In this document: piece by piece, positions 21,537 to 25,145 of the stretch
Position numbering within the stretch: position 1 is the first letter of the stretch
Layout: each line of letters opens with the position of its first letter
Assembly: GCF_001425835.1 (NCBI RefSeq)
Contig: NZ_LMDP01000002.1
Coordinates: forward strand, 962,828 to 1,026,827
Origin: Afipia sp. Root123D2
GTDB taxonomy: Bacteria > Pseudomonadota > Alphaproteobacteria > Rhizobiales > Xanthobacteraceae
DNA: 64,000 bases
Reading direction: 5' to 3'
Made by a program: the position numbers and the translations under genes
The notes under the pieces: model-generated
What the model was told of the DNA's origin: nothing
The model's database searches: none
The model's input: only the letters and a program-made list of their open reading frames with translations

Positions 21537-22016
21537 TCACGTCCCTCCCTGGTCCGCCTTCATCGCGATCCGCAGCGCCTTGGGGATCGGCCGCGCCCGG
21601 CCACCGGAGACGAAGGCGACCTTGACCCGCGCCTCGATCAGCACGTCGCTGCCGCGACGGACCTCCTGCCCGAGCGTGATCGACGCGCCGCGCACATCGA
21701 GTGGCACGGTGACGATCTCAAGCACGTCGTCCATCCGCGCCGATTTGAGATATTCGATCTGCATCGCACGGACGACAAAGGCAAAGCCCGGCGCCTCGCT
21801 CTCGGCCTCCGCGAACAGCGCGTGCTGGTCGGCGCCGAGCAGCCGCAGATAGTTGGTGCGGCCGCGCTCCATGAAGCGCAGATAATTGGCGTGATAAACG
21901 ATGCCGGTGAAATCGGTGTCCTCGTAATAGACCCGCACCTGCATGACGTGCTTGCCGTCATCGATCGCGCCGTCGAGCGCTTTCAAATGCCCCTCGCCCA
22001 TTGCGGATTTACTCAT
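21537..22016 (-). CDS. ybgC: Tol-Pal associated acyl-CoA thioesterase YbgC
   Basis: Hot-dog fold acyl-CoA thioesterase usually encoded just before tolQ. The 159 residues contain [32 protein letters not shown] (about 27-58), with the catalytic Asp of the DTD-TGIVYHxNYL signature. The start at ATG 22014-22016 overlaps the ruvB stop by eight bases. In this genome its normal neighbour tolQ is 7.2 kb away, behind the regulator/transporter block. Confidence 0.93.
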
Positions 22017-23046
22017 CGTCCTGCCCGAACATGCCGAACTGCGCCGGATCGCGCGACGGCTCGGCAAGACCGAGATGCTTGAACGCATGCGACGTCAGCA
22101 GCCGCCCGCGCGGCGTGCGCTGCAGATAGCCACACTGGATCAGATACGGCTCGATGATGTCCTCGATGGCATCGCGCGGCTCCGACAGCGCAGCCGCCAT
22201 GGTCTCGACGCCGACCGGTCCGCCGCCATAGTTCAGCGCAATCGTCGATAGATAACGGCGATCCATCGCGTCGAGCCCGGCGTTATCCACTTCGAGAGCG
22301 CCGAGCGCGTTGTCGGCGATCTTGCGATCGATCGATGCCGCATCGGCCACCGAGGCGAAATCGCGCACCCGGCGCAGCAAGCGTCCGGCGATGCGCGGCG
22401 TGCCGCGCGCGCGGCGGGCGATCTCGTTGGCCCCGTCCGGTGTCATACCGATGCCGAGCACCCGCGCACCACGAGTCACGATTTTTTCCAGCTCGTCCTC
22501 GGTGTAGAAATTCAGCCGCACCGGAATCCCGAAACGATCGCGCAGCGGGTTGGTCAGCAAACCCGCCCGTGTGGTCGCGCCGACCAAAGTGAATTTCGCC
22601 AGATCGATCTTGACTGAGCGCGCCGCCGGTCCCTCGCCGATGATGAGATCGAGCTGGAAATCCTCCATCGCCGGATAGAGTACTTCCTCGACCGCCGGAT
22701 TGAGCCGATGGATTTCGTCGATGAACAGCACATCGCGTTCTTCGAGATTGGTCAGCAGCGCGGCAAGATCGCCGGCCTTGGCGATCACCGGCCCCGAGGT
22801 GGCGCGGAAGCCGACGCCGAGTTCGCGCGCCACTATCTGCGCCAGCGTGGTCTTGCCGAGCCCGGGCGGCCCGACGAACAGCACATGGTCCAGCGCTTCG
22901 CTGCGCTTGCGCGCGGCGTCGATGAACACCTGCAAATTGGCGCGCGCCTGCGCCTGGCCGACGAACTCCGACAGGTTCTGCGGACGCAGCGAGGTGTCGC
23001 CGATATCATCGGCGCGGCGCTCGGGCGTGACGATGCGCTCCGGCAT
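22009..23046 (-). CDS. ruvB: Holliday junction branch migration helicase RuvB
   Basis: AAA+ motor that, with RuvA, drives branch migration of Holliday junctions. 345 residues: Walker A GPPGLGKT (59-66), Walker [11 protein letters not shown] (about 105-114), sensor [19 protein letters not shown] (about 155-173), and a winged-helix C-terminus with [12 protein letters not shown]. Its ATG overlaps the stop of the upstream PD-(D/E)XK gene as TAATG, so translation should be coupled to that accessory gene rather than directly to ruvA. Confidence 0.98.
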
Positions 23047-23570
23047 TACTTAACATTCCTACGAACTACTGTCTCATACTCGGGAATATGTTGACCAATC
23101 CTCTCATAAGAAATCATTCGATCGAACTTCTTACATTCAGCGATATTGCCTAGAAGATACGATTTCGGCGCGATGATAATCGTCTCAAAATCATCATAAG
23201 ATACCCACTTATTCTTCATCATCTGCCGAGCACGAGGCGCGTAATCATCAGCTTGGTATTGCACCAACGGCGCTGAGAATTTGTTCTCGATATGCAAAGC
23301 AACCCGCCTCTCACCGTCTTTGAACACCAGTAAGATGTCGGTTTCTGACTGGCGTCCTGTGTCCTTGACTGAACACCACCAATGCCGCCACCATGCTTTT
23401 GCTGGCCGCTTCGCCTGCTCCTCCGCCAGCAAATCTACAGATTTGGCAACCGCCGCAAATTTCGTCTGGCTCAAAAGCCAAACTGCAAAACCTTTGTCGA
23501 CCAAAACTCGTTCCGCAAAAATCGCGCACAAATAATCTTCGCTTATGGTAGTTGTAGCTGAACTACTCAC
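23046..23570 (-). CDS. PD-(D/E)XK nuclease-like protein embedded between ruvA and ruvB
   Basis: 174 residues with a GTG start. The core reads ETDILLVF, then [21 protein letters not shown]78, E95 and K97 form a PD-(D/E)XK active-site pattern, with Gln residues at 104 and 106 as a likely fourth motif. An acidic N-terminal helix ([12 protein letters not shown]) precedes it. This fits the PD-(D/E)XK superfamily of small stand-alone nucleases. GC is about 46% by hand count, far below the neighbours. GTG overlaps the ruvA stop (GTGA) and its TAA overlaps the ruvB ATG. AAGTGA/AAGTAA flank it, so its removal would leave a plausible ruvA-ruvB junction. It is probably a horizontally gained nuclease; target and role are unknown. 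Confidence 0.75.
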
Positions 23571-24184
23571 TTCGCCAGTTCCTTCAGCCCGAGACGGATC
23601 AACTGTGCCGTCTCCGCCTTGTCGCCGGCATTGCGCGCGGCTGCGGCAATGGCAGCCGCCGCTTGCGGCTGGCCGTAGCCGAGATTCACCAGCGCCGAGA
23701 TCGCGTCCGAGACCGGACGCGGCGCGCGATTGTCGTCCAGTGCACCGGCCAGATGCACCACGGCCGGATCGAGCGTTGCGAAGGCCGGTGTCTTGTCTTT
23801 CAGTTCAGTGACGATGCGCTCGGCGACCTTCGCACCGACACCCGGCGTGCGCGACACCGCCGCCTTGTCGCGCAGCGCGATTGCATTGGCGAGATCGGAC
23901 GGCGGCAACGTCGACAGCACCGCCAGCGCGACCTTGGCGCCGACACCCTGCACGGTCTGCAGCAGGCGGAACCATTCGCGCTCCATGTCGCTGCGGAAAC
24001 CGAACAGCTTGATCTGATCTTCGCGGACATAAGTCTCGATCGAGAGTACCGCTGCCTCGCCGGGCGCGGGCAACGACTGCAGCGAGCGCGCTGAGCAATG
24101 CACCTGATAGCCGACGCCCTGCACGTCGAGGATCACATAGTCCTCGCCGTAGGAATCAATCAGGCCTTTGAGCTTGCCGATCAT
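23567..24184 (-). CDS. ruvA: Holliday junction branch migration protein RuvA
   Basis: Tetrameric protein that binds four-way junctions and loads RuvB. 205 residues: OB-fold N-terminal domain [20 protein letters not shown], helix-hairpin-helix domain with [18 protein letters not shown] and [20 protein letters not shown] (about 72-140), and a C-terminal domain III ([16 protein letters not shown]) that contacts RuvB. The start codon overlaps the stop of the upstream HNH-like gene (ATGA), and its stop overlaps the GTG of the next accessory gene. All catalytic landmarks are intact, so the insertions have not damaged ruvA. Confidence 0.97.
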
Positions 24185-24633
24185 GCGATTGACTTATTGT
24201 GGTGTGTGACAACTCGCTGACATAAATCAACAAACTCTAGATAAGCTAAATCATGCTTGGCATCATTTGTACGCCAGCTACAGATTCTGAATACGGCTGC
24301 ACCGAGACCATCTCCAACGTGATCGACAGTAGGTAACAGGCCATACGAGGATTTGTATGCCCTACGACCAATCTTCGATTCCACGTTGTTGTACGTACTC
24401 ACTAGGTCCCATCTCAATTCTTCGCCAGTATACGCATCGCGACCTTCACACACTTCCACCGCACGGTGGATAGCGAGTTTATAAGATGCGATAGTCGCGT
24501 TCTCATTACCTCGTTTTTTATCCCTCTGGGCGTGAGCTGTCGCCTTTCTATGAAGCCATCTTTCATAGACCTTTTGGTCCAACAAAGCTGCGACAGTATC
24601 TGGCAACTGATATTTGCGCGCCCTTGCGATCAT
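24181..24633 (-). CDS. HNH-like (beta-beta-alpha metal) protein embedded between ruvC and ruvA
   Basis: 150 residues, about 47% GC by hand count. The C-terminal half has AYTGEELRW (68-75), [11 protein letters not shown] (99-109, Asp-His pair D104-H105) and [15 protein letters not shown] (116-129, N123, D124, K126). This order is that of an HNH/beta-beta-alpha-metal nuclease without zinc-binding Cys pairs; the third His appears replaced by Lys, so activity is uncertain. The N-terminal half is basic and helical. Start and stop overlap ruvC and ruvA as ATGA on both sides. ATGATCG occurs at both ends (24627-24633 and 24178-24184), so deletion between them would restore a normal ruvC-ruvA ATGA junction. 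Confidence 0.68.
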
Positions 24634-25145
24634 AGACCCGCCACCTTCAGCTTGAGCATCACACTCTGCCGGTGATGGGCATGGGTAATGGCAATCGCCA
24701 GCGCGTCGGCGGCGTCGGCGCTCGGCGGATGGGCCTTCGGCAGCAGCACGCCGAGCATGACGCGAATCTGGTTCTTGTCGGCGTGCCCGGCACCCACCAC
24801 GGTTTTCTTCACCTGATTGGGCGCGTATTCCGCCACTGAAATTCCGAACAGCGCCGGCGCCAGCATGGCAACGCCGCGTGCCTGGCCGAGCTTGAGTGTC
24901 GAGGCGCCGTCCTTGTTGACGAAGGTGTTTTCCACCGCCGCCTCGGCGGGGCGGAAATCGCCGAGCACGCGGGCCAGCCCCTCGTGGATCGCGAGCAACC
25001 GCTCCGACAATGAAAGTGTGTCACGCGATTCCACCGAACCGCAGCCGACATAGATCAGCCGGTTGCCGTCAACGTCGATCACGCCCCAGCCGGTGCGGCG
25101 CAGGCCCGGATCGATACCCAGAATTCGAATCGCGCGAGACGTCAT
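24630..25145 (-). CDS. ruvC: Crossover junction endodeoxyribonuclease RuvC
   Basis: Resolves Holliday junctions by paired symmetric nicks. 171 residues, RNase-H-like fold. The acidic residues are visible in [16 protein letters not shown] (D12), [11 protein letters not shown] (E near 71) and [18 protein letters not shown] (Asp pair near 140-145). Length is normal. No alphaproteobacterial LexA box (GTTC-N7-GTTC or GAAC-N7-GTTC) was found just upstream. Its stop overlaps the ATG of the HNH-like gene. Confidence 0.97.

Follow-up and report, generated by a model that had tools for sequence, protein, structure and literature searches.

The window, a 64,000-nucleotide stretch of the genome of Afipia sp. 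Root123D2, carries on its minus strand a ruvCAB operon interrupted by two small genes for predicted nucleases. The gene order is ruvC, HNH-like gene, ruvA, PD-(D/E)XK-like gene, ruvB, and every junction is an overlap:

24630-25145, minus strand: ruvC, 171 aa (Pfam RuvC, 2.7e-44)
24623-24633, minus strand: left copy of the ruvA start, ATGATCGCAAG, containing the ruvC stop and the nuclease start codon
24181-24633, minus strand: putative HNH-like nuclease gene, product P0001, 150 aa, taking up the entire ruvC/ruvA insert (model pLDDT 94.5)
24173-24184, minus strand: right copy, the ruvA start itself, ATGATCGGCAAG, which gives the HNH-like gene its stop codon
23567-24184, minus strand: ruvA, 205 aa (Pfam RuvA_N, 1.7e-20)
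23046-23570, minus strand: putative PD-(D/E)XK-like nuclease gene, product P0002, 174 aa, occupying the ruvA/ruvB junction (model pLDDT 94.9)
22009-23046, minus strand: ruvB, 345 aa (Pfam RuvB_N, 2.7e-80)

The layout described by the sequence-only reading, one small gene of about 47% GC per junction, is borne out by these coordinates, by the Pfam matches of RuvC, RuvA and RuvB and by a GC content of 0.47 in each insert versus about 0.61-0.68 in the ruv genes (300-base windows). The overlapping stop and start codons that it placed at all four junctions are there as well: ATGA on both sides of the HNH-like gene, GTGA between ruvA and the PD-(D/E)XK-like gene, where GTG is the start codon of P0002, and TAATG, a one-base overlap, in front of ruvB.

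Conserved residues and structure models label P0001 as a probable HNH-like nuclease and P0002 as a probable PD-(D/E)XK-like one. In P0001 the HNH-like residues are D104-H105 ... N123: D104, H105, N123 and K126 are invariant in an alignment of 82 sequences, and the invariant cysteines of the family are C118 and C138. P0002 features the catalytic pattern E76-x-D78 ... E95-x-K97, with E76, D78, E95 and K97 invariant in 29 sequences, and agrees with the superfamily pattern E/D ... D ... E-x-K. Neither protein reached the Pfam cut-off, Foldseek returned no match below 1e-3 for either model, and sequence searches of solved structures gave no usable match for the two nucleases. Two of the 29 P0002 alignment members match PDDEXK_4 (PF14281) weakly (best E 0.011), and P0002 itself has the catalytic pattern; it lacks, however, a Pfam match, and most of the frames in which this profile finds a match, at 300-430 aa, are longer than P0002. 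Among PADLOC profiles, P0002 matches the candidate profile PDC-M15A (E 0.0021), as do 2 of the 29 alignment members (best E 0.00031).

P0001 matches the PHROG endonuclease VII family weakly (E 0.012) and has in common with F-CphI and the Endo VII-motif (DHHRN) homing endonucleases (PMC6083498) a DH ... N pattern that lacks a conserved Asn in the middle. It departs, however, from the full DHHRN motif (DHDH with CX2-4C and CX2C, plus a conserved Arg and Asn), since V or I comes next after its DH, with no second His and no such Cys pairs in the conserved columns. A phage origin of the gene was considered and rejected: P0001 matched none of 50,697 phage records, and its family was found at one locus in viral contigs.

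From the matching composition a common source of the two genes had been suggested. Equal GC is, however, a weak argument, and the protein-database matches number 1,053 for P0001, with named records from several phyla, versus 31 for P0002, the window's own included. Each protein has one match within the window's own genome. The same operon and the same GC also underlay the idea of a joint antiviral or DNA-repair system of the two nucleases, which did not survive comparison with other genomes: among those examined, no second one holds both genes, the window's being the only one among 385 genomes of its class, 11 of which matched the PD-(D/E)XK profile. This profile matched none of 7 genomes with the HNH-like gene, and at ruvA/ruvB the three further carriers of a ruvC|ruvA copy have no P0002 gene, the whole-genome search among these three having covered one, G864. 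Co-occurrence being absent outside the window in the genomes examined, we reject the joint system, which appears highly improbable. Occurrence at separate, random loci, the outcome set against a system from the start, refutes the pair as such but does not apply to the HNH-like gene, which lies at the same junction in the window and in the Hyphomicrobiaceae, to which the L006 genome belongs.

Sister operons were collected through a RuvA search, which contributed the best 30 of 61 family genomes and matches in 27 of 29 genus genomes, with two loci in common; L006 was set aside, and junctions were counted in 54 family or genus loci besides the window. By tblastn (E up to 0.01), neither P0001 nor P0002 is present at any of the 54 ruvCAB loci, which supports a foreign origin and upholds the earlier suggestion of mobile cassettes that land in the operon. 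The ruvC/ruvA junction is a 4-base overlap, the empty state, in 26 of the 54 loci and is occupied in 28, and the ruvA/ruvB junction is longer than 100 nt in 34. Example occupants scanned with Pfam include a LysE exporter, a DUF3592 protein, a cytidine deaminase and an acetyltransferase; a common membrane protein found no match.

The ruvC/ruvA inserts are not of arbitrary length: in 18 out of 28 it equals 1 mod 3 (p 8e-4 versus one third, loci being treated as independent), so that the overlap is retained at both ends. Half of them, 14 out of 28, are a single open frame running from the ruvC overlap to the ruvA overlap (15 out of 30 with the window and L006). When 14 coupled inserts longer than 60 nt, including that of the window, were shuffled, an open frame turned out to be often expected in nine (P 0.13-0.67) and unlikely in five: the window (0.000), L058 (0.003), L029 (0.005), L046 (0.008) and L078 (0.037). 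We infer from these figures that selection for translational coupling acts on ruvC/ruvA inserts, which would stay open because translation of ruvA and ruvB is coupled to the preceding frame.

A permissive landing site would account for such a pattern: both nucleases would be accessory genes acquired by chance, without any targeting, and tolerated since, as with the repeats and other genes of sister strains, frame coupling was kept. The occupation of 28 ruvC/ruvA and 34 ruvA/ruvB junctions by sequence unrelated to either nuclease, the excess of inserts of 1 mod 3 and the 14 single coupled frames all favor this account, and a permissive junction and chance do explain much of the pattern; as an explanation of both genes, we regard it as a serious but doubtful possibility. 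The P0002 gene, seen at ruvA/ruvB only in the window among the loci examined, looks like just such a chance tenant, one more occupant of a permissive junction.

Some occupants recur. A LysE-type exporter gene lies at ruvC/ruvA in nine loci of the same genus (L028, L057, L062, L064, L066, L067, L071, L073 and L077), identified by Pfam for the L028 copy and by eye for the other eight; these inserts are not overlap-to-overlap frames, and ruvA starts with GTG, not ATG, in 8 of the 9. A cytidine-deaminase-like gene, assigned by Pfam in L034 and by eye in the others, recurs at ruvA/ruvB in several genera (L034, L038, L040, L044, L046, L048, L049, L053, L054 and L055). Four repeat-like inserts were checked: inverted repeats were found in L029 (36 nt arms, 303 nt apart) and L060, while none of at least 12 nt was found in L053 and L061. 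The inverted-repeat inserts, at 1101-1475 in L029 and 2155-2255 in L060, are complete coupled frames at ruvC/ruvA, and the L029 insert has, in addition, 13 nt of the ruvA start copied at its flank.

In the window, the beginning of ruvA, ATGATCGGCAAG, recurs at the left end of the insert as ATGATCGCAAG, a copy that is shorter by one base. Among 21 inserts of at least 30 nt that share an overlap with the ruvA start (L006 and the duplicate L087 excluded), a repeat of this start of at least 7 nt was found in 6, the window and 5 of the 20 others, and one of at least 11 nt in 2. The excess (p about 6e-7) assumes uniform bases and independent inserts, which is not fully true; the repeat has the appearance of a target duplication. 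Such duplication does not characterize the HNH-like gene family, because the other carriers have no duplicated ruvA start: L084 has the overlap alone, and L085 and L086 not even that. At the protein level, P0003 and P0005, among the nearest homologs of P0001, begin with MIGK like RuvA; 2 of 120 listed homologs start with MIG, and 10 with MI.

The HNH-like gene is rare. Searches with the P0001 profile or sequence found one match in each of three overlapping sets, made up of 41 relatives, 385 class genomes and 397 order genomes, and the match was always the window's own genome. In the Hyphomicrobiaceae 3 of 103 genomes matched, seed counted, and all three genes sit at the ruvC/ruvA junction. This speaks against a permissive site alone, since the junctions examined in that family are mostly empty: among 31 loci (the 30 nearest by RuvA of 95 matching genomes, plus the added carrier L084, so that all three carriers are in) 23 measure up to 8 nt, 3 measure 9-60 nt and 5 exceed 60 nt, and 3 of these 5 inserts are the HNH-like gene.

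Of the non-plasmid alphaproteobacterial copies with visible neighbors, 4 out of 4 occupy ruvC|ruvA, namely the window's copy and the three from Hyphomicrobiaceae. The figure is limited to non-plasmid copies because 1 of 11 further HNH-like loci is on a plasmid of Qipengyuania, also alphaproteobacterial. The adjoining DNA of these 11 (L001-L005, L007, L023-L026 and L119) contains no ruvA or ruvC, the sequences of L001, L007 and L024 ending close to the HNH-like gene. Matches were found in 1 of 244 genomes around L003 and in 2 of 235 around L001, seeds counted, and one of the non-ruv homologs lies at a hypB/hypF junction. On a plasmid of Paraburkholderia sabiae (L025, 4992-5528) a family member immediately follows the brxL gene of a BREX locus, and in L002 (5157-6435) another comes after a DUF5131 gene, the two apparently forming an operon. 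Two candidate assignments, a RuvC-like neighbor in L023 and a TcmP neighbor in L002, found no support in Pfam and were dropped.

Identities of the nuclease do not follow those of the flanking proteins. Between the window and L084 identities are 62% for RuvC, 55% for RuvA and 63% for the nuclease, between the window and L085 they are 59, 56 and 60%, and between L084 and L085 they are 74, 68 and 59%. In L085 and L086, which are close relatives, RuvC and RuvA are 95 and 97% identical, whereas the nuclease copies, of equal length and with the same ends, are 73% identical. Between these two the nuclease gene has a dS of 1.0, versus 0.21-0.46 in eight neighboring genes (ruvB not among them, and two opposite-strand frames across ruvA and ruvB having been removed), and a dN/dS of 0.17-0.18: the HNH-like gene evolves under purifying selection, which also counts against mere tolerance at a permissive site. 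Identity falls across the final codons of ruvC and is back up at the start of ruvA; ruvC, with a dS of 0.46, is at the top of the eight neighbors, and there is no clear co-conversion tract. The nuclease gene of this pair has either been replaced or is changing faster than each neighbor measured, and the dS contrast could reflect fast evolution in place, given the equal length and shared ends of both copies. In free trees the window, L084 and L085/L086 fall into separate groups. A single clade of the ruv copies was not rejected (p-AU 0.519; 0.649 with more sequences included; 0.243 when the L006 family is taken by itself; in one of these tests the unconstrained search had failed to find the better tree), and one ancient insertion is compatible with the trees.

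That separate lineages carry the gene at the same junction, with a dN/dS of 0.18, might also be expected of a functional partner of the Holliday-junction proteins RuvC and RuvA, or of a defence nuclease using the expression of the operon, recruited repeatedly. Endonuclease VII is a resolvase family, and both the weak match of P0001 to it and the homolog adjoining brxL in a BREX locus would fit such a role. Nevertheless, we consider it unlikely: the gene occurs in a single one of the 397 order genomes, its relatives are found in unrelated contexts, its fast change is at odds with a core partner, and P0001 matched none of the PADLOC 2023 anti-phage defence profiles up to E 1.

The HNH-like gene is, on sequence evidence, probably mobile, selected and site-associated, and its likeliest identity, proposed tentatively and at somewhat less than even confidence, is a free-standing homing endonuclease. 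Homing is preferred because it best unites the rarity of the gene, its fixed landing point, its incongruence with the flanks and the purifying selection, and among relatives the ruvC|ruvA junction is indeed found both empty and occupied, as expected of an optional gene between two conserved ones. The reading is weakened by the entry of unrelated DNA at ruvC|ruvA in the window's family, where the junction may simply be permissive, and by the 11 HNH-like loci, one on an alphaproteobacterial plasmid, that lie away from ruv. Under the homing reading the operon would have undergone two separate insertions, each into a stop/start overlap. The HNH-like nuclease, horizontally mobile and with an affinity for the ruvC|ruvA junction, would cleave insert-free cells within ruvC/ruvA or close by, and repair of the break with a carrier template would copy the gene in. 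A fuller version, which we find possible though less than probable, is that P0001 belongs to an as yet unnamed family of free-standing homing endonucleases in bacteria, which parasitises the stop/start overlap of ruvC and ruvA: the window's frame would take its start and stop from the duplicated overlap, ruvA would stay coupled, and the gene would spread via the break-repair pathway of its own host genes.

To our knowledge, free-standing homing genes have been described mainly from phages, and in the open-licence literature, for the terms searched, no paper turned up on a nuclease gene lodged at the ruvC/ruvA junction. T4-like phages carry the free-standing homing endonucleases seg and mob, with mobE between nrdA and nrdB (PMC2988022). 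The likeness lies in an optional, patchy, mobile nuclease gene between two conserved genes; P0001 differs in its cellular housekeeping operon, in the window's start and stop codons, taken from the host overlap, and in a cleavage that is predicted. In phages, the cleavage site and the endonuclease gene are hundreds to thousands of bases apart, so that the target of the HNH-like nuclease need not be the ruvC|ruvA junction itself (PMC2988022). Phage homing genes beside or within essential genes, T5orf172 and IPA-HNH being named in a section heading of PMC10448857, resemble P0001 in adjoining essential genes, although the phage setting differs.

Small "hypothetical genes" at ruvC/ruvA are often inserts kept open by translational coupling; an open frame at this junction is therefore no proof of function, and dN/dS is informative. 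If the homing reading is true, a homing lineage in a bacterial recombination operon would place such elements inside core cellular genes, and ruvC|ruvA would offer a directly testable target.
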